64,000 nucleotides of DNA from Banduia mediterranea (GTDB lineage Bacteria; Pseudomonadota; Gammaproteobacteria; Nevskiales; Nevskiaceae): positions 1-64,000 of the forward strand of contig NZ_JAVRIC010000019.1 of assembly GCF_031846245.1 (NCBI RefSeq), read 5' to 3'. The notes below the pieces were generated by a model that worked only from the letters and a program-made list of their open reading frames with translations, was not told the origin of the DNA and made no database searches. Below are positions 1,480 through 47,792 of the stretch, one piece after another. The number at the start of each line of letters is the position of its first letter. The stretch's first letter is position 1. The position numbers and the translations under genes were made by a program.

Positions 1480-1587
1480 CGCGGGGTTTCCGGTTGGAGG
1501 GGCGGCACGCTCATCACACTTGGTCACATCGGTTGCCTGCGCGTTGCGAGACTCACAAACAGTGCAGTCTGCACATTACGCAGCCTT

Positions 1588-2135: not shown

Positions 2136-2148
2136 GCGGCGATCTTAG

Positions 2149-2161
2149 TCCCAAAATGGGA
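2149..2161. promoter_or_regulatory. possible higBA operator (small inverted repeat)
   Basis: TCCC-AAAAT-GGGA lies 14 bases upstream of the higB remnant ATG, the usual place for a HigA-bound operator in an autoregulated toxin-antitoxin operon. The arms are only four bases, so this is a weak call. Confidence 0.3.
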
Positions 2162-2251
2162 CTCTCTTCAACCGGCCTCCGTCCGACGTTGCGGAACGCT
2201 TTCCTCAACCGGTCAATGCGTCGCCCGGATAGACCACAGGATTTCTGCGGG

Positions 2252-7888: not shown

Positions 7889-7890
7889 CG

Positions 7891-8373
7891 TCAGGGCGTG
7901 CTCGTCTTGATTCGGACATACCGAATCTCGGAGGCGTTGTGGACCAACAGGATTTCGCGCAGTCCCTGGGTGTCCTGCCAACGCATTTCGGTATCGGATT
8001 GCGAATCCGCCGGCGCCGGCACCAGCCCCAACAAGGCCAGCGCCTCGGCGCCGGGCTTGACGTCATCAAAGCCGGACAGCGTGATCCAGTCGGCCTTGCC
8101 GTCGATGAAGGCAATGTCGGCATTGGCCGTACGATAGCGACAGTTCTCGCCATAGGCGCTGCGCTCGCACTGCGTCGGCGGGCCCAGCAGCACCGCCACG
8201 CGCCCGGCATCGGCGCCCACCAGTGCCGGGACGGACACGACCTGCGGCTGCCGGCGTGCGAGATCCTCGAACGCCGCTGCGTAGTCGTAACGGTCTGGTC
8301 GCTGCCACCACCAGACCAGAGCAAGGACCACCAACAGCAGCAGGGGAAGCGACCAACGCAGGGTCTTGTCCAA
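7891..8373 (-). CDS. membrane-anchored hypothetical protein upstream of A2M
   Basis: The 160-residue product starts MDKTLRWSLPLLLLVVLALVWWW, a single N-terminal membrane anchor with a positive start, so the rest should be periplasmic. The remainder is a compact domain with two Cys (TQCERSAYGENCRY) that could form a disulfide. I do not recognise a named family. It ends 2 bases before the alpha-2-macroglobulin start, on the same strand, and probably acts with it, for example as an inner-membrane partner. That role is inferred from position alone. Confidence 0.7.
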   Translation of the reverse strand: MDKTLRWSLPLLLLVVLALVWWWQRPDRYDYAAAFEDLARRQPQVVSVPALVGADAGRVAVLLGPPTQCERSAYGENCRYRTANADIAFIDGKADWITLSGFDDVKPGAEALALLGLVPAPADSQSDTEMRWQDTQGLREILLVHNASEIRYVRIKTSTP

Positions 8374-8514
8374 GGTATGGGCGCGGCTCGGGCTTACGCG
8401 TATCCTAACAGCCCCTCGCGGCCGTCCAGTGACGGCCTTCGCGATCCGCCGATTCTCGGCACGCAGGCCGAACCCCGTTCAAGGCCTCAAAAAAGAAAAC
8501 CGGACTCCGCTTCG

Positions 8515-9126
8515 ATGCCGTTTCTGATTGCCACCCTGTTCGCCTTGGCCCTGGGACCGGTGCTGTACGCCTGGGCGAGACGGCGCCCCGGTCTGGCCGA
8601 AATCGCCGACCGCGTGGTGCTGGCGCTGGTGGTGATTCTGGTGCTGCTGGAGTTCGTGCCGCATGCCTGGAGCGAGGGCGGCCTGCCCAGTCTGGCGTTC
8701 GCGCTGCTCGGCCTGTTCGGGCCCAATGCGCTGGAAAGCGCTTTCTCACGCCATCAGCGGCAGGCACATGTGGCCGCAATCGCCCTGGCGGTATTCGGTC
8801 TCACGCTGCATACCCTGGCGGACGGCGCCGTGGTGGCCGATGCCGCACACGGTTGGGGCCTGCCGGCCGCCGTGGTTCTGCATACCCTGCCGATCGGCGC
8901 CGGCGTGTGGTGGCTGCTGGCACCGGATTTCGGCCATCGCGTGGCAAGTATCGTGCTGATCGCCATGGGTGTGGGCACGGTGATCGGCTACCTGATCGGC
9001 TTGTCGCTGGAAGCGATGCTCGGTACCCGCCACTGGGTCTGGTTCGAAGCCTTTGTCGCTGGCGTGATCCTGCATGCCCTGTTCGGCCGCCCGCACCTGC
9101 ATGGCGCGAGTGGACATACGCACTAG
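8515..9126 (+). CDS. ZIP-like polytopic membrane protein
   Basis: The 203-residue product begins MPFLIATLFALALGPVLYAW and has about six or seven hydrophobic segments. The middle has LHTLADGAVVA, matching the HNxxDG-type metal-site helix of ZIP transporters, and later VLHTLPIGAGVWW, a degenerate version of the second ZIP metal helix, which normally has H-E-x-x-H. The C-terminus is His-rich (HLHGASGHTH). Zinc or another divalent metal is the natural substrate guess, but the second site lacks the usual acidic residue, so transport is unproven. The TAG stop is part of the terminal inverted repeat of the element at 9123-9256. Confidence 0.6.
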   Translation: MPFLIATLFALALGPVLYAWARRRPGLAEIADRVVLALVVILVLLEFVPHAWSEGGLPSLAFALLGLFGPNALESAFSRHQRQAHVAAIALAVFGLTLHTLADGAVVADAAHGWGLPAAVVLHTLPIGAGVWWLLAPDFGHRVASIVLIAMGVGTVIGYLIGLSLEAMLGTRHWVWFEAFVAGVILHALFGRPHLHGASGHTH

Positions 9127-9256
9127 TAGTCCACCCACTTGACAGTTGTTGCGGCTATTTCCAAGAACGATTTTCTCCCTCTCTCCGGGAGAAGGTGGCA
9201 ATCATCAATTCGACTCGCACCTCATATCCGTAGTCTACTCATGGAAGGACTACTAG
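9123..9256. repeat. 134-bp element with 10-bp terminal inverted repeats, copy 1
   Basis: The element begins CTAGTAGTCC and ends GGACTACTAG, perfect 10-base inverted repeats. Inside is a CTCTCCGGGAGA palindrome. A diverged relative lies at 20137-20268, sharing the ACTTGA segment near the left end, GAACG..TTTCTCC in the middle and CTCATGG..GAC.ACTAG at the right end. It encodes nothing recognisable. Size, terminal repeats and dispersal suggest a MITE-like or fold-back repeat. Its left CTAG supplies the stop codon of the ZIP-like gene. Confidence 0.7.
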
Positions 9257-9278
9257 GGTTTGGCGGTCCAAGGCTTCG

Positions 9279-9363
9279 TCTCGCGCAAAGATGCAAAGAA
9301 AGTCCCAATAAAAGCTGTTAATTCCTGGCTTTTGCCTTTGCGCCTCCACGTCTTTGCGCGAGA
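9279..9363. repeat. inverted repeat with 13-bp perfect arms
   Basis: TCTCGCGCAAAGA at 9279-9291 is the exact reverse complement of TCTTTGCGCGAGA at 9351-9363, with 59 bases between. It lies between the 134-bp element and the end of the RidA-type gene. It could be a small dispersed palindromic element or a transcript-end structure. There is no T-run, so it is not a classical terminator. Confidence 0.6.
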
Positions 9364-9382
9364 AATCCAATGCCTTTCGCAA

Positions 9383-9934
9383 TCAGGGCTTGGCGGCGAT
9401 TACATCGATCTCGACCAGCATGCCCGGTGCCACCAGACCCGCAACCTGCACGGTAGTGCGCGCCGGCAGATTCGGCTGCGCCTCGCCACCGAAGAACTGG
9501 GTGTAGCCCGCCATGAAACCCTCGAAGTCGAGCATGCCGTCGGCCTCCGGAACGCCGACCAGAAAGGCCTGCATCTTCACCACATCGCCCATGTCCAGAC
9601 CCATGCCGGCCAGGGTTTCCTGAATACGCGTCAGCGCCGAAACGGTTTGGGTCTCGGTATCGCCCCAGAACTCGGCGCTGAACTTCTCGGCATCCGGCTT
9701 GGCCGGCGCCGGGGTCTTGCCGCTGAGGTACACCAGCGTCGTGTCGGCCGGCACTTCAACGGCGTTGGCGATCGGAAAGTCCGAACCCGGAATCGGGTAG
9801 CGCTTGACTTCGGTCTTCGGCGCGGGCGCCATGCCTGAATCCACGGATTTCTCGGCGTCTGCCGGGCCGGGTGAACAGGCCGCCAACAGCAAGGCGGCAG
9901 TGGCGAACACGGTCAGTGACTGAATCTTGTTCAT
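9383..9934 (-). CDS. RidA/YjgF-family lipoprotein
   Basis: RidA-family proteins hydrolyse reactive enamine or imine intermediates released by flavin and PLP enzymes. This 183-residue member is unusual in having a lipoprotein signal: MNKIQSLTVFATAALLLAAC with the lipobox Cys at residue 20. The RidA fold follows, with FWGDTETQTVSALTRIQETL and the terminal PARTTVQVAGL containing the conserved Arg that binds substrate carboxylates in the family. It is therefore probably an envelope protein. It is the last gene of a same-strand block, 32 bases after a Tat-exported flavin amine oxidase. That placement suggests it removes the imine the oxidase makes; this is inference. Confidence 0.85.
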   Translation of the reverse strand: MNKIQSLTVFATAALLLAACSPGPADAEKSVDSGMAPAPKTEVKRYPIPGSDFPIANAVEVPADTTLVYLSGKTPAPAKPDAEKFSAEFWGDTETQTVSALTRIQETLAGMGLDMGDVVKMQAFLVGVPEADGMLDFEGFMAGYTQFFGGEAQPNLPARTTVQVAGLVAPGMLVEIDVIAAKP

Positions 9935-9966
9935 TGCGAGGTTCCTTTACGAAATGCGTCCGCCGC

Positions 9967-11547
9967 TCAGGCGTGGACGCGACGATGGATCATGTCGATC
10001 ACGCTGTGTGCAGAGTACACGGCCCCTTCCTGCCAGCCCGAGTGGTAGCTCATCTGATCGCCCACCAGATAGTGCCGCCCTTCGGCCTGACGCAGCACCG
10101 GATAATGCGTCTTGCGGGCCTCGTCCGACCATTCCGGTGCACAACCGAACAGGTATGGCACTTTCGACCAGCACACGCTGATGCCGTTGTCGATCATCTT
10201 GCTGTAGCCGGGATGCAGTTTTTCGCCCTGCTCCATGGCGAGCGCCAGACGCGCGCCGGGATTGAGCGCGGCGAATTTCTTGCCGACCTCGGGGCCGAAG
10301 GTGTAGGCACCGAGGATCACGCCCTTCTTCTGGTGGAAACCGTGCGGCGGATACCAGATCTGGAGGATGTCCTGCTCGGTCCAGGAAATGCCGCCGTAGA
10401 TGTGGTCGTCCTCCTCCCAGAATCGGCGACTGGTCTGGAAGCCGATCTTGCACAGGTGTCCCGGTTCGACCGCCTTGAGTGCCGCGCGATAGCGGTCCGA
10501 AAAATTGTTGTCGATGCCGGCAGCGACGTAGGCCGGCGCGCCGTCGATACAGAAATCCGCGCTGAGTTCGCGTTCCCCGCCATCCGGATCCTTGAAGCGC
10601 ACCCGGACCTTGTCGTCCTCGTTGAAGATGCCGGTCACCGGCACTCCGGTACGAATCACGCCATCGAGCTTGGCGACGAAGCCACGCACGATCATGTCCA
10701 TGCCGCCCACGGGCTGCATCATCGTGGCCGCCATGTCCCACATTTCGGCGAACTCCATCTTGAACTGCCAGTAGTCGGACTCCAGCAGCTGATGCAGCGA
10801 ATACGGTTCGTGTGGAATTCCGGGCTCGAGCATGGCCTCGCCATTGGTGAATCCGGCCCGGGGCGAGCCCGTGTACTTGAGCTGATCATCGAGGTCACCG
10901 AACTGGTGCATGAAGGCCAGCATCCGCTCCTTGTCCTCGCCCGAAAACGGCTGATCCAGCGCGTCAGTGCTGATCGCCTTGGCCAATAGCTCGGCGATGC
11001 CGCCTCGGGCGTCGGTGATCATGCGCTGCGCACGCACCGGTTTGCCCCCGAAGGCCTTCTTGCTGTGAACCCAGGCAGCCCGGTTGTCGTTGACGAACGG
11101 CTCCAGGGCCACGCCCAATTCGCGGCAGTAAGTCAAAATGCCCTGGTGGTGATACGGCAAACGCGCCGGCCCACAGTTCATGTAGAGATGGGGGTCGTCA
11201 TCAAACTCGCAGAGTTGCTCGCTGTCGTACTCCACCAGTTTGTCGCCGTGGCGCGCGGTCTTGTTGCGTCCGCCGACATGCGCCGTCGCTTCGAGGATCA
11301 TGCAGTCATAACCGGCCTTGCCCAGTTCGTAGGCGCTGACCAGGCCGCCGATGCCGGAACCGACGATGATGACCTTCTTGCCCTTGCCCGAACCCGCTGG
11401 CAAACGAGGCGGACCGGCATAGGCCGGCGGAACGGCCACCAGTCCCAAGGCCGTCATTGCACCATACAATTTTGAGCTGCCCGCGACGGCGCCGAGACGG
11501 CTCAGGAAATCGCGGCGCGTCCACGCCGCTCCGATTGATTCGGCCAT
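9967..11547 (-). CDS. Tat-exported FAD amine oxidase/dehydrogenase
   Basis: This flavin-containing amine oxidase family enzyme (monoamine oxidase/L-amino-acid oxidase fold) oxidises a C-N bond to an imine. The 526-residue product starts at the ATG of MAESIGAAWTRRDFLSR, a twin-arginine signal with Arg11-Arg12, followed by a hydrophobic stretch to PPAYAG. FAD-binding KVIIVGSGIGGLVSAYEL spans about residues 58-75, with the ribose-binding Glu in MILEA. The C-terminal FAD segment is YLVGDQMSYHSGWQEGAVYS. An upstream in-frame ATG 26 codons earlier would bury the Tat signal. It lies 11 bases downstream of a cytochrome c gene, so cytochrome c rather than oxygen may be its electron acceptor, as known for the nicotine enzyme NicA2 with CycN. 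The substrate is unknown. Confidence 0.85.
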   Translation of the reverse strand: MAESIGAAWTRRDFLSRLGAVAGSSKLYGAMTALGLVAVPPAYAGPPRLPAGSGKGKKVIIVGSGIGGLVSAYELGKAGYDCMILEATAHVGGRNKTARHGDKLVEYDSEQLCEFDDDPHLYMNCGPARLPYHHQGILTYCRELGVALEPFVNDNRAAWVHSKKAFGGKPVRAQRMITDARGGIAELLAKAISTDALDQPFSGEDKERMLAFMHQFGDLDDQLKYTGSPRAGFTNGEAMLEPGIPHEPYSLHQLLESDYWQFKMEFAEMWDMAATMMQPVGGMDMIVRGFVAKLDGVIRTGVPVTGIFNEDDKVRVRFKDPDGGERELSADFCIDGAPAYVAAGIDNNFSDRYRAALKAVEPGHLCKIGFQTSRRFWEEDDHIYGGISWTEQDILQIWYPPHGFHQKKGVILGAYTFGPEVGKKFAALNPGARLALAMEQGEKLHPGYSKMIDNGISVCWSKVPYLFGCAPEWSDEARKTHYPVLRQAEGRHYLVGDQMSYHSGWQEGAVYSAHSVIDMIHRRVHA

Positions 11548-36755: not shown

Positions 36756-37535
36756 ATGAACTCGATCGAACCGATACCGGCCTTCAGTGACAACTACATC
36801 TGGGCACTGGTCGGTGAGCGTTATGCCTGGATCGTCGATCCCGGCGAGGCCGCACCGGTTTGCAAATTCCTGAGCGACCGCAATCTGGGGCTCGCCGGTA
36901 TTCTGGTGACGCATTGGCATCCAGATCATATCGGGGGCATCGCCGAATTGCAGCGCGACGCGGCGATTCCGGTGGTCGGGCCCGCCAGTGAGGCTCAGCG
37001 CATCGAATTGCTGACCCGCCCGGTCGCCGATGGCGATCTTGTGGAGCTGCTCGGCCGGAGCTGGCGCGTGATCGAAGTTCCCGGGCATACGCTGGGGCAT
37101 ATTGCCTATTACAGCGAGGGTTACCTGCTGTGCGGTGACACGCTGTTCTCGGCCGGCTGCGGGCGGCTGTTCGAAGGCACGCCGGAGCAGATGCACCACT
37201 CGCTGAGCCGCCTGTCCGAGCTGCCGGACGAGACGCAGCTGTACTGCGCGCATGAATACACTGCCGCCAATCTGGCATTCGCCAAAGCCGTGGAACCGGA
37301 CAGTGCGGTGCTACGCGAAGCCGAAGACAACGTTCATGCGGCGCGTCAGCGCGGCCTGCCGAGCCTGCCCTCGACCATTGGGCGCGAGCATCGAATCAAT
37401 CCGTTCCTGCGCGTCGGCGAGCCTGCCGTGATCGCCGCGGCAAGAGCCCAAGGCGCCGAATCGGACGCGCCGGCAACGGTGTTTGCTACCCTGCGCAACT
37501 GGAAGGATAACTACAAAGCGCAGACCTCCAGATGA
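36756..37535 (+). CDS. gloB: hydroxyacylglutathione hydrolase (glyoxalase II)
   Basis: It hydrolyses S-lactoylglutathione to lactate and glutathione in methylglyoxal detoxification. The 259-residue metallo-beta-lactamase-fold enzyme has the binuclear metal motif THWHPDHIGG (His53, His55, Asp57, His58), then PGHTLGHI, GDTLFSAGCGRLFEG and the glutathione-contact end with CAHEYTAANLAFA. Length and closing residues match GloB. Its stop overlaps the mltD start by ATGA. Confidence 0.95.
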   Translation: MNSIEPIPAFSDNYIWALVGERYAWIVDPGEAAPVCKFLSDRNLGLAGILVTHWHPDHIGGIAELQRDAAIPVVGPASEAQRIELLTRPVADGDLVELLGRSWRVIEVPGHTLGHIAYYSEGYLLCGDTLFSAGCGRLFEGTPEQMHHSLSRLSELPDETQLYCAHEYTAANLAFAKAVEPDSAVLREAEDNVHAARQRGLPSLPSTIGREHRINPFLRVGEPAVIAAARAQGAESDAPATVFATLRNWKDNYKAQTSR

Positions 37536-38815
37536 TCGGATTGACACTCGCGGCGCGGCGTCTTGCCGTGGCGTTGCTGCTGTTGCTGACGGCGCTGCCC
37601 GGCCAGGCCGCCGAACAGATCTGGCCGCGTGTGTGCGAAGGCATGTCGCTGCACGGCGAGGCCCAGCCACAGGTCCAGAAGTGGCGCGGCTACTACAGCT
37701 CGCACCCGCGTCGCGTTCGATCGCTGCTTGCGCCGAGCGAACCCTGGCTATGGCATATCGTGCGCGCGATCGACGAGCGCGGATTTCCGATGGAAATCGC
37801 CCTGCTGCCCGTGATCGAGAGCAACTACAACCCCAGCGCCCGCTCGCCCGGTGGCGCCGAGGGGCTGTGGCAGTTCGTCGGCGTGACCGCCCGTAATCAC
37901 GGCCTGCGTGAAACCGATTGGTATGACGGCCGGCGAGACGCGCTCGCATCCACCGATGCGGCGCTCGACTACCTGGCAAACCTGCATGACCTGTTCGACA
38001 ACTGGCTGCTGGCGCTGGCGGCCTATAACGTCGGCGAGAACCGACTGATCGCCGAACAGCGCAAGCAGAGGGCCGCCGGGCTTCCCCGCAATTTCTGGAA
38101 AATGCCGCTTCCGGAAGAAACTCGGGGCCACGTGCCGCGCCTGCTGGGACTGGCGCTGGCCGTGTGTGGCGACGACATGCGCCTGCCGGAGATCAAGGAC
38201 ACACCGGTCACAGACATCGTCCAACTACCCGGCCAGATCGACCTGCAGGTCGCATCGGACTGGAGCGGTGTGCCCTTGTCGACCCTGTTCGCGATCAATC
38301 CTGGCCTGCGTTATTCGGTGACTGATCCGGACGGGCCGCACCGGCTGCTGATGCCGATCAGAAACATCGAGAAATTCAAGCTGCGTCTCGCAAGCGCCGA
38401 CCAGTCCGAGTTCGTCCGCTACGCTCGCCACACCGTCGCCAGCGGCGACAATCTTTCATCCATCGCGCAACGCTACGGCTCGAGCGTCGGGGCGATACAA
38501 CGCACCAATCGCCTCAGCGGCACGCTGATCAAGGCCGGCCATACCCTGATGATCCCGAAAGGCGGCAGGCCGGCAAGCACCTTGAAACCGCCGCTGGTCG
38601 CATCCACCACCACCTCCCGTCGGCAAAAGGCGGAGTACGTGGTGCAGGCAGGTGACAGCCTGTCTGTCCTTGCGCAACGATTCGGGGTCAGCCAAAAGGA
38701 ATTGGAGTCATGGAACGACCTGTCGCGCAGCGGAGTCCTGCGTATCGGCCGAAAGCTGGTGATCTGGCTGCCGCAAGACGGCGACAGCAACAGCGAGCGT
38801 TCCCCGGATGCATGA
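37532..38815 (+). CDS. mltD: membrane-bound lytic murein transglycosylase D
   Basis: It cleaves peptidoglycan glycan strands, forming 1,6-anhydro-muramyl ends. The 427-residue product has a signal peptide (VALLLLLTALPGQAA) without a lipobox Cys, unlike E. coli MltD, so it may be soluble in the periplasm. The SLT domain carries the catalytic Glu96 in PVIESNYNP, with GLWQF and LALAAYNVGENR. Two LysM domains (about 302-345 and 371-415, VASGDNLSSIAQRYG and VQAGDSLSVLAQRFG) bind glycan. It is coupled to gloB by ATGA. Confidence 0.92.
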   Translation: MIGLTLAARRLAVALLLLLTALPGQAAEQIWPRVCEGMSLHGEAQPQVQKWRGYYSSHPRRVRSLLAPSEPWLWHIVRAIDERGFPMEIALLPVIESNYNPSARSPGGAEGLWQFVGVTARNHGLRETDWYDGRRDALASTDAALDYLANLHDLFDNWLLALAAYNVGENRLIAEQRKQRAAGLPRNFWKMPLPEETRGHVPRLLGLALAVCGDDMRLPEIKDTPVTDIVQLPGQIDLQVASDWSGVPLSTLFAINPGLRYSVTDPDGPHRLLMPIRNIEKFKLRLASADQSEFVRYARHTVASGDNLSSIAQRYGSSVGAIQRTNRLSGTLIKAGHTLMIPKGGRPASTLKPPLVASTTTSRRQKAEYVVQAGDSLSVLAQRFGVSQKELESWNDLSRSGVLRIGRKLVIWLPQDGDSNSERSPDA

Positions 38816-38896: not shown

Positions 38897-41275
38897 ATGA
38901 ATCCATACAAACGCCTGAAGACTTCGCTGTGGGTGGCGGCCCTGGTCGCACTACCGTTCGCCGCCAATGCCGGCGCGCCGACTCCGATCGACCCGGAAGC
39001 GCTCAAGCTCGACCAGCAGGTCGGCACGCTCAAGAACGAGGTATTGCAGCTCAATCGCGCGCTCAACGCCCAGGAGCAGGCTCTGCTCTATCCGGCGTTC
39101 AGCCGCACGGACATCTACGTCAACATCGATGTTCGGGGCTTTCTGCTGACGGACATGTTGGTCAGCATCGATGGCGGCACGCCGTTCACGTTTGCCTACA
39201 CTGAACGCCAGTCCACCGCCTTTACTGACGGTGGCTGGCACCGCCTGGCGCGCACCAACGTCACCCAGGGCCCGCACCGCCTGCATGCGGAGTTCACCGG
39301 TCACTACATCACCGCCAAACCCGGCGACCCGCCGATCCACGGTTCGCTCGAGACCAGCTTCAACAAACAGCTGGCCTCGCTCGACATCGTGCTGCCATTG
39401 GCCGGGCTCGGACAAAGCCTGCAGATGGATTCGGTGCAGCGTCTGCAAGCACCCTCCACGCTGATCGATTCAGACGACGCCTCACAACAATGGAAGCTCG
39501 ACAACGCACGTGTCGACTACCGACTCGGCTCCGTGGGAGACCCCCGCCTCAAGGCGGCGCAGTTCTATGAAACCGAGGGCCGCTACTTCACCGCGCTCAC
39601 CGAACTGCTCAACATCGCCGACGAAGCGGGCTCCGACGACAGCTTTTCCCAAGACTACTTCTGGCTGCTGGCCGAGTGTTATCTGTCGTTCGGCCTTAAG
39701 CCGCAGGCCGAAGCGGTCTACGATCGCCTCGCACAGATGACCCAGTCCGCGCCGGAAACCCTGGGAAGGGCACGGCTGCGCATCGCCGAATTCGAGTACG
39801 AGCGCGGTTACCTGCCGGAAGCCACACGCGACCTGATGCGCCTGCGCGAAACTCTGCCGCAGGCTCTGCTCATCGAGTGGCAGGATCTGTTGTCACGGGT
39901 GCTGATGGAACAGGGCCGCTACAACGAAGCGGTCGAAGTGCTGACCGAACTCGACAATATCGACGAACACACGCCGTTCATGGAGTACAACCTGGGCGTC
40001 GCCATGGTCAACGACGGCCGGGTCGCCCAGGGCCGCAACCTGCTCGACCGCGTCGGCCGCATGCGTCCGAAAACCGTAAAGGACCTGGCGTTACGCGATC
40101 GCGCCAATCTGGCGCTCGGTTACAGCTTCCTGCGCAACGAGCTCGGCGGCAGCGCGATTCCGGCATTCAACCGTGTCCAGGTCGAGGGCCCGTTCTCGAA
40201 TCGCGCTCTGCTCGGCCTCGGCTGGTCGCAACTCGCGCCGCGTGGAGATCTGCAGAATCGCGCCGCGATCGGTGACGAGGACGATGTCGAGCGCAGCTTA
40301 AATGCCTTTTCATCGCTGGGCGTGTTGATACGTCCCGGATACTTGGAAGACGATCTCTTCAAGCGCTCCGCGCTGCGCCCGTTCGCGCGCGGAAAAGTCG
40401 CCAAGGAAGCCGAAGAAGCGCTGCTGCGCGCCTTGGTGCCGTGGGTTGAACTGGTCAAGCGTGACCGCATGGACCCGGCCGTGCAGGAAGGCATGCTGGC
40501 GATTCCCTATGCGCTGGAGCGCCTCGGTGCACACGAACAGGCGCTGGACCGCTACCTGATCGCGATAAAAACGCTCGAAGAAGGCCGCTCGCGTATCGAT
40601 GAAGGCATAGAGTCGCTCAACAAACTGGCAATGATCGAAACCATCGTGCGACGCGACGTGGACGCCGAATCCGGCTGGGATTGGCGCCTGCGTGACCTGC
40701 CCGACCTTCCAGAGACCTATTGGTTGACCTCGCTGCTATCCGAGCATCGATTCCAGGAAGCGCTTAAGAACTACCGCGATCTGCGCTTTCTCGCGCGCCG
40801 CCTCGATACCTGGGAGGATCGCCTGCAACGCATCGAAAGTGGCGCACGGGCCGTACCGCCGGTTCCCGCAGACCTGCTGATCGCGGCACGGCGCAGCCGT
40901 GACTGGCTGCCGCAGGACTTGCCCGGAATCCGACTGCGCAGCAGCGATCACCTTGGAACCGTCAGCGAAGTTGAAGGCGCTGATTCGGCTCCGGCCAAAG
41001 CGCCGGTTGAGCTGTCGCTCGCCGACGCCCCGCCTGCCTTCGATGGCCCCAGTGAGAAGCTCGCCGTCACGGTGCCGGACATCGACCGCCTGCGCCCGCT
41101 GCTGTCCGATATCGGCACCGCCCAGGCCGCATGGTTGCGCGACCTCGGTGTCAAGGAACTGGAAGCTCAGAAGCAACAGCTGGAGAAATACCTGCTCGAA
41201 GCACGCTTCTCGATGGCGCGCATCTACGATCACAAGATTCAGGCGGAAGATTCCGCGGCGGAGGGCGAGGAATGA
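38897..41275 (+). CDS. exported TPR-repeat protein, first gene of ExbB/ExbD/AgmX-type operon
   Basis: The 792-residue product starts at MNPYKRLKTSLWVAALVALP with a cleavable signal ending ANAGA. Residues 30-60 look coiled-coil, followed by a beta-rich segment (FSRTDIYVNIDVRGFLLTD) and then helical repeats typical of TPRs (YLSFGLKPQAEAVYDRLAQM, LMEQGRYNEAVEVLTELDN). It has no catalytic motif. Its stop overlaps the next start (ATGA). Similar large TPR proteins accompany ExbB/ExbD-type motors, such as the Myxococcus gliding cluster and Vibrio TonB2 clusters. Here it probably scaffolds the periplasmic part of the complex. The exact role is unknown. Confidence 0.75.
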   Translation: MNPYKRLKTSLWVAALVALPFAANAGAPTPIDPEALKLDQQVGTLKNEVLQLNRALNAQEQALLYPAFSRTDIYVNIDVRGFLLTDMLVSIDGGTPFTFAYTERQSTAFTDGGWHRLARTNVTQGPHRLHAEFTGHYITAKPGDPPIHGSLETSFNKQLASLDIVLPLAGLGQSLQMDSVQRLQAPSTLIDSDDASQQWKLDNARVDYRLGSVGDPRLKAAQFYETEGRYFTALTELLNIADEAGSDDSFSQDYFWLLAECYLSFGLKPQAEAVYDRLAQMTQSAPETLGRARLRIAEFEYERGYLPEATRDLMRLRETLPQALLIEWQDLLSRVLMEQGRYNEAVEVLTELDNIDEHTPFMEYNLGVAMVNDGRVAQGRNLLDRVGRMRPKTVKDLALRDRANLALGYSFLRNELGGSAIPAFNRVQVEGPFSNRALLGLGWSQLAPRGDLQNRAAIGDEDDVERSLNAFSSLGVLIRPGYLEDDLFKRSALRPFARGKVAKEAEEALLRALVPWVELVKRDRMDPAVQEGMLAIPYALERLGAHEQALDRYLIAIKTLEEGRSRIDEGIESLNKLAMIETIVRRDVDAESGWDWRLRDLPDLPETYWLTSLLSEHRFQEALKNYRDLRFLARRLDTWEDRLQRIESGARAVPPVPADLLIAARRSRDWLPQDLPGIRLRSSDHLGTVSEVEGADSAPAKAPVELSLADAPPAFDGPSEKLAVTVPDIDRLRPLLSDIGTAQAAWLRDLGVKELEAQKQQLEKYLLEARFSMARIYDHKIQAEDSAAEGEE

Positions 41276-44076
41276 AACCGAGGCATTGGATCGCGACGGT
41301 CGCGGTGCTGTCGGCCGGTTGCGCCTCCACCATCGAGAACTCCAGCCCGAGTATTCGCGAAGCTCTGGATCGCAAGCAGCCAGCTCCGGAAGAACTGACC
41401 GTCGAACAATCGACGAAAATTGAGGCAAACCCGCAGCTCGCGCTGGAAAACTATCGCGAGATCATGAAGTTGCAGCCCGACAATGAAACGCGGGCGGAGG
41501 CCCTGCGGCGCGTGGCCGACCTGCAGATCGAGGTCGAGGACGTGGAACCGGGCACCGATGACGCAGCACTGAAGAACTCGATCGGAATCTATCAGGATCT
41601 GTTGAAGAGCAATCGCGACGGCAAGGCCAACGACCGCGTGCTCTATCAACTGGCGCGCGCCTACCAGAGTCTTGGCGAAACCGAGCTGTCGATCGATACG
41701 CTGGCGCGCCTGCAGGCCGAGTATCCAGACTCGTCATACGCGTCGGACAGCCATTTCCGTCGGGGTGAACTGCTGTTTGCCAGCAATCGCCTCAGCGAAG
41801 CAGCGACCGAGTATCGCGCCGTCATGGCCTTGGGTGATGCAACGCCGTTCTACGAAGCCGCCGAGTACAAACTGGCCTGGTCGCTGTACAAGCAGTCCGA
41901 CTACGAGGCCGCCGTCGCCGTACTGTTCACGATTCTCGACCGTGACCTGCCGCCGGATCCAAGCAGCGATCCACAGGCCGCTGTGGATGCCACCGCGGGC
42001 GGCAAGCGCGCGCTGGTGAAGGACGTGCTGCGTGTCACCAGCCTGTCGTTCGCGGCCATGGGCGGCGGACCGGCCATGAATGGTTATCTGGATAGCCACG
42101 AAGAACCGGCCTACTACCCGCTGCTGTACCGCAGCCTGGGTGACCAGCTGCTCGAACAGGAACGCTACAACGACGCCGGCGAAGCGTATGCGGCATTTGT
42201 GCAGCGGCACAGCAATGATCTGCTGGCGCCCGAATTCCAGGCCAGCGTGATCGATGCCTATCGCCAGGGCGGATTCGCCGAGCTGATCATCCGCGAGAAG
42301 GAACGTTACGCCAACACCTACGATCCGCGCGCCCCGTACTGGAAGGGGCGGCCTGTTCCGGACGAGGTCATGACCGCATTGCGGCAGCACTTCGACGATC
42401 TGGCGAAGTATTACCATTCCCAGGCATCGGCCGATCCTGAGACGCGCAGCGGCGATTTCCTGACCGCCGCGTCCTGGTACCGACGCCTGCTCGACGTGTT
42501 CCCGAACGATCCGGCGGCGCCGGAAAGCAACTTCCTGCTCGGTGAGACGCTGTACGCGGGCGGCAAGACACTTGAAGCGGCGCAGCAGTACACGCGGACC
42601 GCCTACGACTACCCACCGCATCCGCGGTCGGCGGAAGCGGCCTACGCCGCCGTACTGGCCTACCAGCAATACGCGGCCAAGGTGCCGGCCGAGGAGCGCC
42701 CGCAAGCGCTGCGCTTGGCGATCGATTCCGGCAAGCGTTTCGCCGCCGCACATCCGCAGCATCCGCAAGCCCTGCCGGTACTGACTCGTGCGACCGAAGA
42801 CCTGTTCGAAATCAAGGCTTTCGATGAGTCCGTGACGGTGGCACAGCAAGTGCTCACCGCGCAGCCTGCCGCACCCGTCCCGCTGCGCCGCACCGCGCTC
42901 GCGGTCAGCGCCGACGCGGAATTCACCCAGGAGGACTATCCAGCTTCCGAGGCCGCCTACGCGGCGCTGTTGCGGATGGTGCCGGTCCAGGAAGCCGAGG
43001 AACATGAGCGTGTCACCGAACAGCTCGCCGCCTCGATCTACAAACAGGCCGAAGCCGCTCGCGCCGCCGGCGACCAGCGCGCAGCGACCGAACAGTTCCT
43101 GCGCGTCGGCAAGATCACGCCAAACGCCAGCATCCGCGCCAATGCGGACTACGACGCAGCCGCGTCACTGATCGAACTGGAAGACTGGGCCGGCGCCGCC
43201 ACGGTGCTCGAAAGCTTCCGCTCGCGTTTCCCCCAGCATGAATTCGCGGCCGACGTCGACAAGAAACTGGCCGTGAGCTACGAGCGCGATACGCAGCCGG
43301 TGCAGGCCGCCATCGCCTATCAGCGCATCGCGAACCGCGACACCGAATCGCAGGACATACGTCGCGAGGCGGCGTGGAAGTCGGCGCAGCTCTATGACGA
43401 GGCCAATCGTCCAGGCGACGCAGCCGGCGCCTACGAAAGCTACGTCCGGGCGTATCCGCAACCCATCGACTCCGCTTTCGCGGCAAGACAACGTCTCACT
43501 GAGATCTACAAGGCGCAGGGCAACACCGGTCAGTATCGCTACTGGCTGGGGCAGGTCGTCGCCGCCGATGCGCAGGCCGGTGCCGCGCGCAGCGATGCCA
43601 CCCGACTCGCCGCCGCGCGCGCCAGCCTGGAACTGGGCCGCATGGAAGCACGGCGCGCCCGTGCGCTGCGCCTGAACCTGCCGATCGAACAGAGCCTGCC
43701 ACCGAAACGCGAAGCCATGCAGTCCTCGATCGACATCCTGTCGGCCGCTGCGGACTACGGCTTCGCCGAAGTCACCACGGCGGCGACGCTGGAACTGGGC
43801 GACCTGTATCGCGCCTTTGCGCGCGCGCTGATGGAATCCGAACGGCCGCGCAATCTCGACGATCTGGCCCTGGAACAGTACGACCTGCTGCTCGAAGAAC
43901 AGGCCTACCCCTTCGAGGAAAAATCGATCGAGTGGTATGAAACCAACCTCAAACGGATTCGAAATGGTGTCTATGACACGTCCGTCAAGAAAAGCTACGA
44001 CGCCCTGGTGGACATCGCGCCCGGACAATACGCCAAGCGCATGAAGGCCGAGGAGTATTACGATGCGCTGCGCTGA
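41272..44076 (+). CDS. large TPR lipoprotein
   Basis: The 934-residue product begins MKPRHWIATVAVLSAGCAST, a lipoprotein signal with the lipobox Cys at 17, so it should be anchored in a membrane, probably the outer one. The rest is almost entirely helical TPR-like repeats (LALENYREIMKLQPDNETRA, LYQLARAYQSLGETELSIDT, YEAAEYKLAWSLYKQSDYEA). No enzyme motif is seen. It overlaps its upstream neighbour by four bases and its downstream one by 14. Architecture suggests a protein-protein scaffold bridging envelope layers for the ExbB/ExbD motor encoded downstream; this is inference. Confidence 0.78.
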   Translation: MKPRHWIATVAVLSAGCASTIENSSPSIREALDRKQPAPEELTVEQSTKIEANPQLALENYREIMKLQPDNETRAEALRRVADLQIEVEDVEPGTDDAALKNSIGIYQDLLKSNRDGKANDRVLYQLARAYQSLGETELSIDTLARLQAEYPDSSYASDSHFRRGELLFASNRLSEAATEYRAVMALGDATPFYEAAEYKLAWSLYKQSDYEAAVAVLFTILDRDLPPDPSSDPQAAVDATAGGKRALVKDVLRVTSLSFAAMGGGPAMNGYLDSHEEPAYYPLLYRSLGDQLLEQERYNDAGEAYAAFVQRHSNDLLAPEFQASVIDAYRQGGFAELIIREKERYANTYDPRAPYWKGRPVPDEVMTALRQHFDDLAKYYHSQASADPETRSGDFLTAASWYRRLLDVFPNDPAAPESNFLLGETLYAGGKTLEAAQQYTRTAYDYPPHPRSAEAAYAAVLAYQQYAAKVPAEERPQALRLAIDSGKRFAAAHPQHPQALPVLTRATEDLFEIKAFDESVTVAQQVLTAQPAAPVPLRRTALAVSADAEFTQEDYPASEAAYAALLRMVPVQEAEEHERVTEQLAASIYKQAEAARAAGDQRAATEQFLRVGKITPNASIRANADYDAAASLIELEDWAGAATVLESFRSRFPQHEFAADVDKKLAVSYERDTQPVQAAIAYQRIANRDTESQDIRREAAWKSAQLYDEANRPGDAAGAYESYVRAYPQPIDSAFAARQRLTEIYKAQGNTGQYRYWLGQVVAADAQAGAARSDATRLAAARASLELGRMEARRARALRLNLPIEQSLPPKREAMQSSIDILSAAADYGFAEVTTAATLELGDLYRAFARALMESERPRNLDDLALEQYDLLLEEQAYPFEEKSIEWYETNLKRIRNGVYDTSVKKSYDALVDIAPGQYAKRMKAEEYYDALR

Positions 44077-44743
44077 ACCCAAACTGCTGCTGGTCGCCGC
44101 GCTGGCGGCGCTGCTGGCGGCCTGCGGAGGCACCGGAACGGTGCGTCCGACGCCATCATCGCAGCCGGCGGCCGAAGAACCAGCCCCCGAAGAAGCCGAG
44201 CCGGAGCCGGAACCCGAAAAGGAAGATCCGGAAGGGCGATCCGAAGCCGCGGTCAAACTCATGCGCATCGGCAAGACCGACGAGGCCATCGAAGCGTTCC
44301 GCAGCCTGACGCAGGACTTCCCCGGCTTTTCCGGGCCGTATACCAACCTTGGCATTCTTTACGCCGGGCGCGAGCAGCGCGAGGCCGCGATCGGTGCGCT
44401 GTCACAGGCGATACAGCTGAACCCCGAGAACAAGGTGGCATTGAATCTGCTGGCGATTCAGTACGTCGAGTCCGGCAACTTCGAACGTGCCGAACAGAGC
44501 TGGCTGCAGGCTTTGACCGTTGACCCCGGATATGCCGCCGCCCACCTCAACCTGGGCATGTTGTACGAACGCAATCTGGGACGGCCGCAGGCCGCCATCA
44601 CGCAATACCGCGCCTACCAGTCGGCCATGGGCGGCGACGCCCTGCAGGTTGATGTCTGGGTCGCCGAGATCGAAGCTGCGACGACCACTGGCGGCAACGC
44701 GCAAGCAGTACCGGCAATGCCGAGCCTGGAGACAGAACAGTGA
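44063..44743 (+). CDS. TPR lipoprotein
   Basis: The 226-residue product has a lipoprotein signal (LLVAALAALLAAC, Cys21), then a Pro/Glu-rich linker (residues about 30-55) and three or four TPR units (AAVKLMRIGKTDEAIEAF, NLGILYAGREQREAAIGALS, LNLGMLYERNLGRPQAAI). The acidic proline linker would let the TPR head reach away from the membrane. It overlaps the large TPR lipoprotein gene by 14 bases and the next gene by ATGA-type spacing. It compares with TPR lipoproteins found beside ExbB/ExbD sets such as AglT, by context only. Confidence 0.78.
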   Translation: MRCAEPKLLLVAALAALLAACGGTGTVRPTPSSQPAAEEPAPEEAEPEPEPEKEDPEGRSEAAVKLMRIGKTDEAIEAFRSLTQDFPGFSGPYTNLGILYAGREQREAAIGALSQAIQLNPENKVALNLLAIQYVESGNFERAEQSWLQALTVDPGYAAAHLNLGMLYERNLGRPQAAITQYRAYQSAMGGDALQVDVWVAEIEAATTTGGNAQAVPAMPSLETEQ

Positions 44744-45099
44744 GCAAGACCGTATCATTCCTGATTGCTGGTCTCCTGATCGCGGCCTCGGGTGGCATCG
44801 CCCGGGCTCAGGATGAACAGCCAGCGGTTCAGACATCAGGACAGTCCAGCACGAAGCCTGCTTCGGCAGGCCAGGAAGGTTATGGAACAACCATTCTCGG
44901 TGAACGCGAGACACCGATCGGACTTTTTATCACGCCCTGGCGCGACTCCACGCCCGAGGCCGAGATCGACCGGCCGGCGAAACTGCTCGACGAAGCCATG
45001 CTGCCCGTCGATAAGGACGTGTTCTCTCGCTATATCGAATACAGCGCCGCGCTAGCCGAACACCGCAAGGTCAAGGCCGACAAGGCCGCAACGCCGTAG
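44740..45099 (+). CDS. small exported hypothetical protein in motor operon
   Basis: The 119-residue product has a signal peptide (SFLIAGLLIAASGGIARA) and a short hydrophilic body with GYGTTILGERETPIGLFITP and a terminal helix. I recognise no domain. It overlaps the TPR lipoprotein stop and lies 59 bases before exbB, whose start has GAGGAG upstream. Co-occurrence inside the operon is the only clue to function. Confidence 0.65.
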   Translation: MSKTVSFLIAGLLIAASGGIARAQDEQPAVQTSGQSSTKPASAGQEGYGTTILGERETPIGLFITPWRDSTPEAEIDRPAKLLDEAMLPVDKDVFSRYIEYSAALAEHRKVKADKAATP

Positions 45100-45158
45100 A
45101 CACGACTGACGTACCCCAGAAACCCCCAGGCAACACAAACTCTCACGAGGAGCGCGGT

Positions 45159-45791
45159 ATGGATTTTTTTGGAACGGTGCTGACCTTCTTCAAGACGGGC
45201 GGCGCTTTCATGTACCCCATCGCCATAATCATGGTGCTCGGCTTGGCGATTGCGATTGAACGCTGGCTATTCCTGCAGCGTTCACATGCCGAGAATCGCC
45301 GATTGTGGGCGAAGCTGCAGCCGCTGATGAGCCAGCGCGACTTCGCCGCAGCCGAAAAAGTCACCGCCGAATCGGATACGGCGATCGGCCATGTGCTGTC
45401 GTTCGGCCTCTCCCGTGCGCAGAACCGTGGCTCGCGGCAGGACGTCGAAAGTGCGATGGAAGAATCGCTGATGGAAGTCACGCCACTGCTCGAAAAGCGC
45501 ACGCACTACCTCGCCACGTTCGCCAACATCGCGACGTTGCTGGGTCTGCTCGGCACGATCATCGGCTTGATCCAGGGGTTTACTGCGGTCTCCAACGTCA
45601 ACCCTGCCGAAAAGGCGGACGCGCTGTCAGCGTCGATCTCGGTGGCCATGAACACCACGGCGTTCGGCCTGATGGTCGCCATTCCGCTGCTGTTCCTGCA
45701 TACCTGGCTCACCACCAGGACCAACGAGTTGCTTGACAGTCTGGAGATGGCCACCGTCAAGTTCATCAACAGCCTGACGACAACGGGATGA
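45159..45791 (+). CDS. ExbB/TolQ/MotA-type proton channel
   Basis: The 210-residue inner-membrane protein has three transmembrane segments in the ExbB pattern: YPIAIIMVLGLAIAIERWLF, a long cytoplasmic stretch, then ATFANIATLLGLLGTIIGLI and AFGLMVAIPLLFLHTW. The TLLGLLGTIIGLIQGF and MNTTAFGLMVAIP blocks are the family signatures, with the pore-lining Thr residues. It should form the pentameric stator around an ExbD pair and use proton flow to drive a transducer. It overlaps the first exbD by ATGA. Confidence 0.93.
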   Translation: MDFFGTVLTFFKTGGAFMYPIAIIMVLGLAIAIERWLFLQRSHAENRRLWAKLQPLMSQRDFAAAEKVTAESDTAIGHVLSFGLSRAQNRGSRQDVESAMEESLMEVTPLLEKRTHYLATFANIATLLGLLGTIIGLIQGFTAVSNVNPAEKADALSASISVAMNTTAFGLMVAIPLLFLHTWLTTRTNELLDSLEMATVKFINSLTTTG

Positions 45792-46285
45792 TCAAGCGCC
45801 TGCACCGCTCGCGGCGGACCGAGCCCGCCGAGCTGCAGATCACCGCCTTCATGAACCTCATGGTGGCGCTGGTGCCGTTTCTGTTGATCACGGCCGTTTT
45901 CTCGCAGCTCGCGGTTCTGGAACTGAACCTGCCCGATCCGAGTTCCGCAGCATCGGATGAAGAGCCCCCGCCGCGCTCGCTGACCGTGGTCATCCGCGGC
46001 GGCAACCTGACCGTGCTCGACGCCAGCGGCCCGATCAAGGCATTCCCGAAGACCGGTGGTGACTACGATCTGGACGCGCTCGCGGAATTGCTGCTGAGCA
46101 TCAAGCAGCGCCTGCCCAGCGAGCAGAAGATCACGCTGTTGCTGGAACCCGATGTAGCCTACGACGCCTTGATCCAGGTCATGGACGCCGTTCGCGTCAA
46201 ACCCGATGAGAGTGGCGAGATGTTTCCCTTGATTTCGATCGGTGACGCCCCGGCCGAAGCCGTGCCCGAGGGAGGTGCTTCATGA
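45788..46285 (+). CDS. ExbD-type protein lacking the proton-carrying Asp
   Basis: The 165-residue product has one N-terminal transmembrane segment (ITAFMNLMVALVPFLLITAV) and a periplasmic ExbD domain. In ExbD and TolR the segment reads PFIDVMLVLL, with an essential Asp that carries protons; here the aligned residue is Asn23 (AAC at 45854-45856), one base from an Asp codon. It is otherwise intact. It is followed, with ATGA overlap, by a second ExbD that keeps the Asp, so the two may form a heterodimer with a single proton-active subunit. This is read directly from sequence; the consequence is inference. Confidence 0.85.
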   Translation: MIKRLHRSRRTEPAELQITAFMNLMVALVPFLLITAVFSQLAVLELNLPDPSSAASDEEPPPRSLTVVIRGGNLTVLDASGPIKAFPKTGGDYDLDALAELLLSIKQRLPSEQKITLLLEPDVAYDALIQVMDAVRVKPDESGEMFPLISIGDAPAEAVPEGGAS

Positions 46286-46827
46286 GCGCAGGCTTCGGCA
46301 GCAGTGCCAAAAGCCGGCGGCTGACACGGCGTACCAAGAAATCGCGGGCGCAGGCGACGCTGAACATCGTGTCACTGATGGACATCTTCACGATTCTGGT
46401 GTTCTTCCTGCTGGTCAACTCCGCGGCGGTAGAGACTCTCCCCAACCCCAAGGCGATGACCCTGCCGGAATCGATCGCCGAGGAGCGTGCCGAAGAAGTG
46501 CCCGTGCTGATGATCGCGCGTGACCGCATCGTCATCCAGTTCGGTAACAACGTACGCGATGTCATGAGTACCGAAGCGGCCACCAAGGCCACCACGTCCA
46601 TTCTGGCGCCGCTGAAGTCCGCGATTTTCGAGGAAATTCGACTGGTTCCCATTGAGGGCGATCCGCAACGGCGCATGACGCGCGGAGAAATCAACGTCAT
46701 GGCCGACAAGGACGCGCCCTATGCCCTGCTCAAGAAAGTGATGTCGACCTGTACCGACGCGCAGTTCGCCAGCATCTCCCTGGCGGTGATCCATCGGCCC
46801 TCCGACAAAGGGAAGACCGCACCGTGA
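46282..46827 (+). CDS. second ExbD-type protein, Asp retained
   Basis: The 181-residue product has a basic cytoplasmic start (SRRLTRRTKKSRAQA), a transmembrane segment LNIVSLMDIFTILVFFLLVN with the conserved Asp34, and a periplasmic ExbD domain ending in SLAVIHRP. It overlaps the first exbD (ATGA) and the transducer gene (GTGA). With the upstream ExbB it should form the energised stator; the companion ExbD has Asn at the equivalent site. Confidence 0.9.
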   Translation: MSAGFGSSAKSRRLTRRTKKSRAQATLNIVSLMDIFTILVFFLLVNSAAVETLPNPKAMTLPESIAEERAEEVPVLMIARDRIVIQFGNNVRDVMSTEAATKATTSILAPLKSAIFEEIRLVPIEGDPQRRMTRGEINVMADKDAPYALLKKVMSTCTDAQFASISLAVIHRPSDKGKTAP

Positions 46828-47792
46828 GCGTCTACGCGTTGAACGACCTGTTCTGGGGCTATTCCGAGCAATCGGATCGCTCGTTCCGCCGCTGGGTGAT
46901 GATCCTGGCTATCCCGTTTCTGGTCATCGGCCTGGTCGTACCGTTTCTCAAACTGGCTGGCCTCGAACGTGGCGGTGGACAGGCGGGAGAAGCCCGCTAT
47001 GCCGAGCTGATCCAGGAAGAACCGGCACCGATCGCCGAACAGGTCGAGGAGCCCGCACCGACCGAGGAAGAGCAAGCCGAGGAACCTGCGCCTGAAGAGC
47101 CCGCGCCGACGCCAGAAACGCCGGTGGAACAGGAAGCGCCGCCGGAGGTGCAACAACCCACGGCCGCGGAGCAGCAGCAACAGGCACGCGAGACCGCGCA
47201 GAGAAGCGGTGTACTCGCCTTCTCCGATCAACTCAAGGATCTGCGAGACAGCACCTTGCCGGGAATGGACGCCAACCGCAGTCTGCAGACCGAGGTCGTC
47301 ACCGGCGGCATTGGCGGTGGCGGCTCAGGCAACACCATCGCCCAGTCCGCCAGCTCCGGGTCCGGCGGCATCGGCAGCGGCCAGGTTCGGCGGCAGCAGG
47401 GCGGAACCGGCATCGGCGAGCGCCGCACCACCACCGTGGAGCGTCCCGCCGGCTTGGGCCCAGATCCGACGCGTATCGGCCAGAGCGGGGATGCCCGCAC
47501 CCCCGGGCGCACGCTCGAGGAAATCCAACTGGTGTTCGACCGCAACAAGGGTTCGCTGTATACGCTCTACAACCGCGCGTTGCGTGGCAACGCGGGTCTG
47601 CGCGGTGTCGTCAACGTCAAGCTGACGATCGCTCCGAACGGGCGTGTCAGCAACTGCACGGTGGTTTCGAGCGAACTCAATGACCCGGAACTCGAGCGCA
47701 AGATCGTGGCCCGCATCATGCTGTTCGATTTCGGCGCGAAGAACGTCGACGAGATCACCATCGACTATCCGATCACGTTCCAACCGCTATAG
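46824..47792 (+). CDS. TonB/AgmX-like energy transducer
   Basis: The 322-residue product has a short cytoplasmic start, one membrane anchor (VMILAIPFLVIGLVVPFLKL, about 25-45), a Pro/Glu-rich periplasmic linker (residues about 60-115), a Gly-rich stretch (GGIGGGGSG), and a C-terminal domain with EIQLVFDRNKGSLYTLYNRA and VVNVKLTIAPNGRVSNCTVV. This matches the AgmX/PglI C-terminal domain, a TonB_C relative known from the Myxococcus gliding motor. It starts at a GTG overlapping exbD2 and ends the operon. It probably carries ExbB/ExbD energy to the TPR proteins or the outer membrane. Confidence 0.85.
   Translation: MSVYALNDLFWGYSEQSDRSFRRWVMILAIPFLVIGLVVPFLKLAGLERGGGQAGEARYAELIQEEPAPIAEQVEEPAPTEEEQAEEPAPEEPAPTPETPVEQEAPPEVQQPTAAEQQQQARETAQRSGVLAFSDQLKDLRDSTLPGMDANRSLQTEVVTGGIGGGGSGNTIAQSASSGSGGIGSGQVRRQQGGTGIGERRTTTVERPAGLGPDPTRIGQSGDARTPGRTLEEIQLVFDRNKGSLYTLYNRALRGNAGLRGVVNVKLTIAPNGRVSNCTVVSSELNDPELERKIVARIMLFDFGAKNVDEITIDYPITFQPL

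Follow-up and report, generated by a model that had tools for sequence, protein, structure and literature searches.

The Glt/Agl Core Complex

Luciano et al. (2011; PMC3169522) described a cluster composed of gltC, gltD, gltE, gltG, aglR, aglQ, and aglS together with one extra gene. Outside the Deltaproteobacteria every carrier has these genes clustered (the carriers being several gammaproteobacteria, one betaproteobacterium, and one member of Fibrobacteres), and so does Geobacter. The cluster was named the "core complex"; its function was unknown, and motility exerted by the core alone was thought unlikely. A paper of 2013 regarded it as a possible "basal transport machinery," and no later function was found among the matches listed in the open-licence literature (titles and abstract beginnings). 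The subject of the present report is an eight-gene operon at positions 38897 to 47792, on the + strand, of a 64,000-nucleotide stretch of DNA (the window) from Banduia mediterranea, a member of the Nevskiaceae; the window belongs to contig NZ_JAVRIC010000019.1, here called C19, of a 3.83 Mb genome. The operon almost certainly represents the Glt/Agl core complex in its gammaproteobacterial form. Its eight genes very probably encode a proton-driven force machine, and this machine family has members associated with two distinct flavin modules.

Layout and Identity of the Operon

A first-pass annotation, made from the sequence alone, had described eight co-oriented genes for three tetratricopeptide repeat (TPR) proteins, a small exported protein, one ExbB, two ExbDs, and a transducer. 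This description is borne out by the open reading frames (ORFs), all eight of which were found on the + strand, and by Pfam and NCBIfam. Pfam recognizes TPR domains in proteins 1-3, MotA_ExbB (2.6e-28), ExbD twice (3.4e-14 and 3.8e-14), and TonB_C (1.3e-5). Gene content, gene order, conservation, and these domains are direct observations, and the export signals were recognized by eye. The genes overlap at six of the seven junctions, in agreement with the annotated overlaps of 4-14 bases between nearly all of them: by 4 bases at gltC/gltD (the gltD start being taken at 41272), gltE/sml, exbB/exbD1, exbD1/exbD2, and exbD2/gltG and by 14 bases at gltD/gltE, while sml and exbB are separated by 59 bases.

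Homologues of gltC, gltD, gltE, gltG, aglR, and the aglQ/aglS pair are thus gathered in one cluster. The gltC, gltD, and gltE assignments are based on domain, size, and order, and the two ExbDs were matched to AglQ and AglS jointly. The resemblance to the Agl/Glt set of Myxococcus, which had been pointed out from the sequence, is confirmed; the accompanying opinion that the set had no name in gammaproteobacteria is not supported, as Luciano et al. had already named it the core complex. The extra gene of PMC3169522, for which that paper gives no Myxococcales homologue, has two candidates here, namely GltC-N (the N-terminal part of GltC) and the gene of the small exported protein.

Conservation among Relatives

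A GltD profile at E ≤ 1e-30 matched 63 of 274 genomes of the class, belonging to 41 family groups. In the window's order, GltD was detected in 45 of the 61 genomes, including all 34 of the family, where one genome gave a fragment only. This count supersedes that of a GltC search (66/274 class genomes, some matches being weak). No relatives came up when genome contigs were scanned with GltC as a single protein, and GltD gave no match in a plasmid collection.

The relatives were studied in 120 loci, of which 40 (38 from relatives and two from the own genome) were picked from search matches and the others are the best 80 of 564; this is a non-random sample in which some places occur twice, and redox genes were sought in it by single-sequence searches. 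Named loci include Panacagrimonas, Solimonas, Hydrocarboniphaga, Nevskia, Steroidobacter, Woeseiaceae, and Aquabacterium. GltD is present in 116 loci, together with gltE in 99, the small gene in 108, exbB in 98, exbD1 in 94, exbD2 in 86, and gltG in 90, contig ends lowering these counts. An exbB with at least one exbD accompanies GltD in 95 of the 116 loci, and some of the remainder are truly motor-less (for example, L048, L058, and L076). Gene order does not vary among the loci, as far as each of them has the genes. Co-occurrence across genomes had been proposed as a check, and the genes do stay together; since the set is conserved across 116 GltD loci, chance clustering is excluded.

Flavin Redox Modules beside Related Operons

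Meheust et al. (2021; PMC8238504) described a DUF3570 flavinylation module, in which ApbE puts flavin mononucleotide (FMN) on DUF3570, and tied PepSY and some DUF3570 clusters to iron reduction and uptake. In many relatives of the window operon, ApbE, an AhpC/TSA-type thioredoxin, DUF4266, and DUF3570 lie directly upstream of gltC, as found by flank clustering of 40 loci and by Pfam on examples. When related genomes are taken as independent, any DUF3570 is found in 53 of the 63 class genomes with GltD and in 18 of the 211 without it. The signal is carried by a divergent subfamily (75-160 bits; 40/63 versus 1/211), while canonical DUF3570 (>160 bits; 23/63 versus 17/211) is only mildly enriched; G076 and G136, with DUF3570 pieces of 39-56 bits, are counted under "any" and in neither of the two classes. 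The sole divergent DUF3570 of a sampled genome lacking GltD lies at G052:C8:81882-82619. DUF4266 occurs in 66 of the 274 class genomes. Of 73 GltC places among the matches listed, 24 have DUF3570 at a distance of no more than 5 kb, against roughly 0.4 expected by chance (a rough estimate), and 10 more have it within 30 kb. ApbE, DUF3570, or FMN_bind lies inside the fetched stretch in 55 of the 116 GltD loci and in 23 of 60 representatives. In two loci, L061 and L067, genes recognized by eye as metal-transporting P-type ATPases stand ahead of ApbE and the glt operon.

The second module accompanies second copies of the scaffold genes. DUF3034 or FMN_bind is found in 14 of 17 second-copy regions of the window's order, and these 14 also hold a truncated globin (12), PepSY (11), and ApbE (7). 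The other three comprise one region with globin only and two, at contig ends, with none of the redox genes sought. The 17 are the 20 regions fetched around lower-scoring GltD copies minus L190 and L196, which are first copies, and L193, a third copy. Pfam confirms the redox families on examples, with the globin of L192 just below the cut-off (20.7 of 21 bits) and that of L048 above it. DUF3034 is present in 25 of the 26 order genomes having at least two GltD copies, 3 of the 19 having one, and 3 of the 16 having none, when second fragments in G277 and G287 are left out of the copy counts; a GltD is no more than 16 kb away from 22 of the 33 places where DUF3034 occurs. In five loci (L107, L187, L191, L202, and L203) a full motor is present in the same stretch as the second-copy redox genes. 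The third copy (L193; G321:C1:1513000-1532900) has its own motor, with thioredoxin, DUF4266, and DUF3570 genes upstream. Its genome gave three GltD matches and appears to possess, in addition, a first copy and a motor-less one next to DUF3034, globin, FMN_bind, PepSY, and ApbE genes.

The main text of PMC8238504 makes no mention of TPR, ExbD, gliding, motor, or globin, and a flavinylation paper of 2024 (PMC11334425) none of DUF3570, gliding, ExbB, TPR, or motor. In the open-licence literature searched, DUF3570 appears in one paper only, and no article combining ApbE or flavinylation with ExbD or AglQ was found among the matches listed. Within that literature, the link between the Glt core and flavin redox proteins may be unreported.

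The structure model of the divergent DUF3570 is a beta-barrel, with a mean predicted local distance difference test score (pLDDT) of 84.9. Outer-membrane barrels (PelB, FadL, and OmpG) come first among its PDB matches, with a query-length template modeling score (TM-score) not above 0.53 among the 50 listed. The matches, among many barrels, include the polysaccharide export barrels PelB and AlgE, and they bear on a different explanation, according to which the operon encodes a surface transport or gliding-type machine whose motor moves an outer-membrane adhesin or a surface polymer along the cell, like Agl-Glt and Agl-Nfs in Myxococcus. Homology to the Glt/Agl core agrees with this explanation, as does the movement of spore-coat polymer by Agl-Nfs described in Myxococcus; moreover, in L054, L056, L062, and L086 an ORF of 1396-2041 amino acids, resembling a surface protein by eye and in some cases cut by the stretch end, follows right after gltG. 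Against it, GltJ, an essential gliding protein of Myxococcus and the Group A protein sought, gave 0 matches at E ≤ 0.001 in the own genome; in the control genomes the same search gave matches in 4 of 14, none above the cut-off. A machine of this type is considered fairly unlikely. The stretches of this clade of four loci yielded no redox genes, and the ORF after gltG in L056 contains repeated stretches which we take to be DUF11-like.

The reading of the operon as a redox-linked core complex meets several results that weigh against it. The homology to Myxococcus rests on a GltG model matched at 41.3 bits (equivalog cut-off 650) and on the AgmX/PglI tail. No redox neighbor of the window copy (ApbE or a flavinylated substrate) was found at 30001-56000, and the redox genes sought were found beside none of the first copies in 20 regions of the order. 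The DUF3570s of the own genome are canonical only (415 and 210 bits), each located by ApbE and none by a Glt gene; 10 of the 63 genomes with GltD have no DUF3570 at all, and the co-occurrence counts treat relatives as independent observations. Finally, the first site of the flavinylation motif [S/T]GA[S/T] is exact in only 7 of 17 divergent DUF3570 proteins, so that flavinylation of every one of them is doubtful. Flavin modules, recurring as neighbors in relatives, favor an outer-membrane redox or transport complex as the client.

The Motor Subunits

The ExbB/TolQ/AglR-like motor subunit (45159..45791, +; 210 amino acids) is recognized by Pfam and NCBIfam, and it is followed by two ExbD/TolR-like proteins, ExbD1 (45788..46285, +; 165 amino acids) and ExbD2 (46282..46827, +; 181 amino acids). 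In a search of solved structures, ExbB matched only ExbB/TolQ chains (E 1e-7 or weaker) and ExbD1 only ExbD/TolR chains (E 0.05-0.29). The best NCBIfam model for ExbB is TolQ, at 60.9 bits against a cut-off of 221. Toward the Ton equivalog models, ExbB reaches 41.6 of 206.2 and 42.0 of 135.35 bits and ExbD1 20.1 of 123.45 bits. A ZorAB defense motor was also considered and rejected: PADLOC gave a weak TPR match and ZorA matches of only 14.5-16.9 bits, due to the shared channel domain.

The two ExbDs differ at the position of the proton-carrying aspartate. ExbD2 retains it in the window (VSLMDIF) and in 110 of 110 loci, whereas ExbD1 of the window has asparagine (ITAFMNLMV). Counting all 111 loci, the window among them, 76 have asparagine and 35 aspartate at this place in ExbD1; when thinned to 99 loci, the numbers are 68 and 31. 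The frequency of asparagine also disposes of a sequencing fault. In Myxococcus, AglQ and AglS are both predicted to carry the membrane aspartate (according to a review), and the motor no longer works when the aspartate of AglQ is changed to asparagine (2013 paper). With an invariant aspartate in ExbD2 and mostly asparagine in ExbD1, most of the sampled core motors would therefore perhaps run on one proton carrier, if ExbD1 and ExbD2 form a pair, as their families suggest. Such a pair, with ExbD2 as the only proton carrier, would be a natural test of the use of two ion sites by 5:2 motors.

The type of ExbD1 may be mirrored in ExbB. At position 166, in the third transmembrane helix, threonine occurs in 69 of the 75 Asn-type motors that were scored and in none of 35 Asp-type ones; among 47 cluster representatives, the figures are 32 of 35 and 0 of 12. 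On the GltD tree (rows >90% identical and rows >1900 amino acids having been dropped from the tree sets) the Asn/Asp state changed about four times, and 3 of 3 independent pairs are concordant with ExbB 166 (p = 0.25). As three concordant pairs cannot reach significance, covariation of ExbB and ExbD1 is rejected as proven and remains a lead. At ExbB position 142, about half of the pairs show no difference with ExbD1 type. The third copy mentioned above (L193) has cysteine at position 166 alongside an Asn-type ExbD1. In Asp-type loci (L097, L101, L103, and others), the start and the transmembrane helix of ExbD1 resemble those of ExbD2, the start being like that of ExbD2 of other species; gene conversion from ExbD2 may have restored the aspartate, which is only an impression.

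TPR Proteins, Small Exported Protein, and Transducer

The GltC-like TPR protein (38897..41275, +; 792 amino acids) begins with an ordinary signal peptide, recognized by eye. In most relatives gltC consists of two genes, of about 190 and 630 amino acids, while in the window and in some order members the N-terminal short gene and the TPR gene are fused. The AlphaFold model of GltC is a TPR solenoid with a long C-terminal helix (mean pLDDT 73.2; 232 residues below 50), and a fold search returned TPR solenoids of many kinds. Its N-terminal part has no confident model, and the split-gene versions align poorly. The GltD-like TPR lipoprotein (41272..44076, +; 934 amino acids) and the GltE-like TPR lipoprotein (44063..44743, +; 226 amino acids) both contain TPR domains, and those of GltD match a YbgF/CpoB-like TPR model above its cut-off (99.3 versus 90.1 bits). 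Two lipoprotein signals had been noticed among the three TPR proteins; both are found by eye as N-terminal lipoboxes, LSAGC in GltD and LAAC in GltE, followed by alanine and glycine, respectively. A crude lipobox pattern is present in 125 of 139 GltE homologues versus only 75 of 157 GltD homologues, with ORF starts set mechanically. In L059, L063, L083, and L084 the gltD ORFs measure 1415-1518 amino acids and a separate gltC is absent, which probably reflects gltC-gltD fusions.

The small exported protein, called sml here (44740..45099, +; 119 amino acids), has an ordinary signal peptide by eye and no Pfam match, and residues G54, P66, and W67 are conserved around a hydrophobic strand. In an alignment of 138 homologues the tryptophan is kept in 100%, the proline in 99%, and the glycine in 99%. 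Because these residues are near-invariant, the comparison of sequences indicates that the small protein is a real component of the set. In Myxococcus gltF comes after gltE, as sml does here, and sml may be the equivalent of GltF. The hydrophobic strand ahead of Pro-Trp resembles a TonB box.

The last gene encodes a GltG-like single-anchor transducer (46824..47792, +; 322 amino acids), formed by a transmembrane helix, a Pro/Glu linker, and a TonB-like C-terminus of AgmX/PglI type. The type of this C-terminus had been proposed from the sequence, and it is upheld by a match above the cut-off (9.6e-18; 64.1 bits versus 40) and by the presence of the tail in 21 of 21 GltG homologues scanned. TonB and TolA are reported to bind their motors via a conserved SHLS motif; inspection of the window GltG shows a transmembrane helix without histidine, and SHLS-type motor binding therefore seems not to take place. 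These features are relevant to the explanation of the operon as a dedicated TonB-like import energizer, where GltG would pull an outer-membrane transporter for a metal or nutrient and the flavin proteins would reduce the cargo. The TonB-like C-terminus speaks for it, together with the flavin-module linkage of relatives and the link of PepSY and some DUF3570 clusters with iron (PMC8238504); the lack of the histidine of SHLS and a TPR scaffold unlike that of the Ton system speak against it. Overall, such an energizer appears unlikely. As to membership in the Ton system proper, the scores of ExbB and ExbD1 fall far below the equivalog cut-offs and the GltG helix has no histidine, so this assignment was rejected.

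Other Motors, Second Copy, and Neighboring Genes

The own genome has nine ExbB-type, eight ExbD-type, and nine TonB_C matches. In addition to the window operon, ExbB/ExbD clusters with a TonB_C protein nearby are located on contigs C1, C2, C12, C13, and C20. From this co-location, C1, C12, and C13 are read as Ton-type, C20 as TolQ/TolR/TolA, C2 as a different ExbB-ExbD-ExbD set, and C19, that is, the window, as the only Glt-type motor of the genome. The C2 set was considered as a second copy of the window motor and rejected, as its ExbB matches at only 50 bits and a gamma-glutamyltransferase adjoins it (by eye). In its stretch (L047, 8584-11697), the ExbB-ExbD set adjoins gamma-glutamyltransferase and ferredoxin genes, again by eye. 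The first-pass annotation had named, as a result that would contradict it, an ExbB/ExbD pair that simply energizes a canonical TonB encoded elsewhere. With a TonB_C protein near each of the other clusters, the window motor need not do so, but it may still serve a TonB.

A second gltC-gltD-gltE-sml set is found on contig C7 (L048, C7:12000-30000; 944-10765), with no motor or gltG in the stretch fetched. Genes for DUF3034, a truncated globin, FMN_bind, and PepSY come after it, and no ApbE was found there. In Myxococcus, AglR binds both GltG and NfsG (2013 paper), which is a precedent for motor sharing. By analogy, the motor-less copy on C7 may borrow the window motor, as Nfs borrows AglRQS.

Directly upstream of gltC, at 37532-38815, lies a gene for an MltD-like transglycosylase with LysM-like repeats (by eye). 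The operon is flanked by GloB-MltD on one side and by FabI on the other, and the order GloB-MltD-glt-FabI is common to several members of the window's order; in the first-copy regions of the order, GloB, MltD, or FabI is close by in those cases in which it was detected. MltD was consequently rejected as a dedicated partner, this being local synteny. The same gene bears on the explanation of envelope maintenance, in which a Tol-Pal-like motor would hold or constrict the outer membrane against peptidoglycan. The MltD-like lytic transglycosylase upstream in several order members, TolQ as the top NCBIfam model for ExbB, and the YbgF/CpoB-like repeats of GltD are in line with it. However, MltD with GloB seems local synteny, the eight operon proteins include no Pal or TolB match, a separate cluster on C20 is read as TolQ/TolR/TolA, and the patchy distribution (63/274) is ill-fitting for an essential housekeeping role. 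A maintenance role is accordingly quite improbable, and membership in Tol-Pal was rejected on the TolQ score, the lack of TolB and Pal, and the C20 cluster.

Proposed Mechanism and Significance

In motors of this kind, five ExbB subunits enclose two ExbD helices, which are turned or rocked by the flow of protons. From the families involved, the pentameric ExbB of the window would hold one ExbD1 and one ExbD2 as a heterodimer, and proton flow via the single aspartate of ExbD2 would turn or rock the pair. GltG, which in Myxococcus binds AglR (PMC3169522; 2013 paper), would be anchored by the motor and span the periplasm, its TonB-like end gripping a complex of GltC, GltD, GltE, and the small protein on the outer-membrane side. 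The force would then act on an outer-membrane client, possibly a complex with a flavin-bearing protein (a DUF3570 barrel, or FMN_bind with DUF3034).

On balance, the operon is best read as an envelope machine that transduces force, with a redox or transport complex of the outer membrane, rather than a gliding adhesin, as its probable client; about even chances are given to this view. That the client is specifically a redox-linked complex, as the genome context of relatives suggests, is placed a little short of even. The most explicit form of this proposal is rather doubtful: the core complex would use proton flow to work on a flavin redox complex of the outer membrane. A motor with two unlike ExbDs, one of them the only proton carrier, would pull via GltG on the TPR lipoproteins, and these would be attached to a flavinylated DUF3570 barrel or to a chain of FMN_bind, PepSY, and DUF3034; this would perhaps be the ancestral job behind the Myxococcus gliding motor, and in the own genome one motor would serve two complexes. 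No example is known to us of a motor that transduces force and is at the same time coupled to electron transfer outside the cytosol, as this one would be. The core complex is carried by 63 of the 274 class genomes sampled, with its function unreported in the parts of the literature consulted. In this regard, the linkage to flavin modules offers a concrete client candidate, which would tell what the gliding motor of Myxococcus may have evolved from.

Comparison with Known Systems

With the Ton and Tol-Pal systems the operon shares an ExbB/ExbD motor and a TonB_C-like transducer; it differs from them in its two unlike ExbDs, its TPR lipoprotein scaffold, the lack of an SHLS histidine, and the absence of Pal and TolB from the operon. 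As regards the flavinylation clusters with DUF3570, ApbE, DUF4266, and thioredoxin or with PepSY, the same families adjoin the Glt operons of many relatives and not the window copy. The AglRQS-Glt gliding machinery of Myxococcus xanthus has in common with it the two-ExbD motor, the GltG-type transducer, and the TPR lipoproteins, whereas asparagine in the window ExbD1 contrasts with the membrane aspartate predicted for both AglQ and AglS. Neither this asparagine nor the redox linkage is mentioned in the consulted parts of PMC3169522, and nine units are counted here (the seven of the core, GltC-N, and the small exported gene), with GltC-N fused to GltC in the window. Otherwise the operon corresponds to the core complex of Luciano et al.: TPR proteins GltC, GltD, and GltE, a TonB-like GltG, an AglR-type ExbB, and two ExbDs in one cluster, with two candidates for the extra gene.

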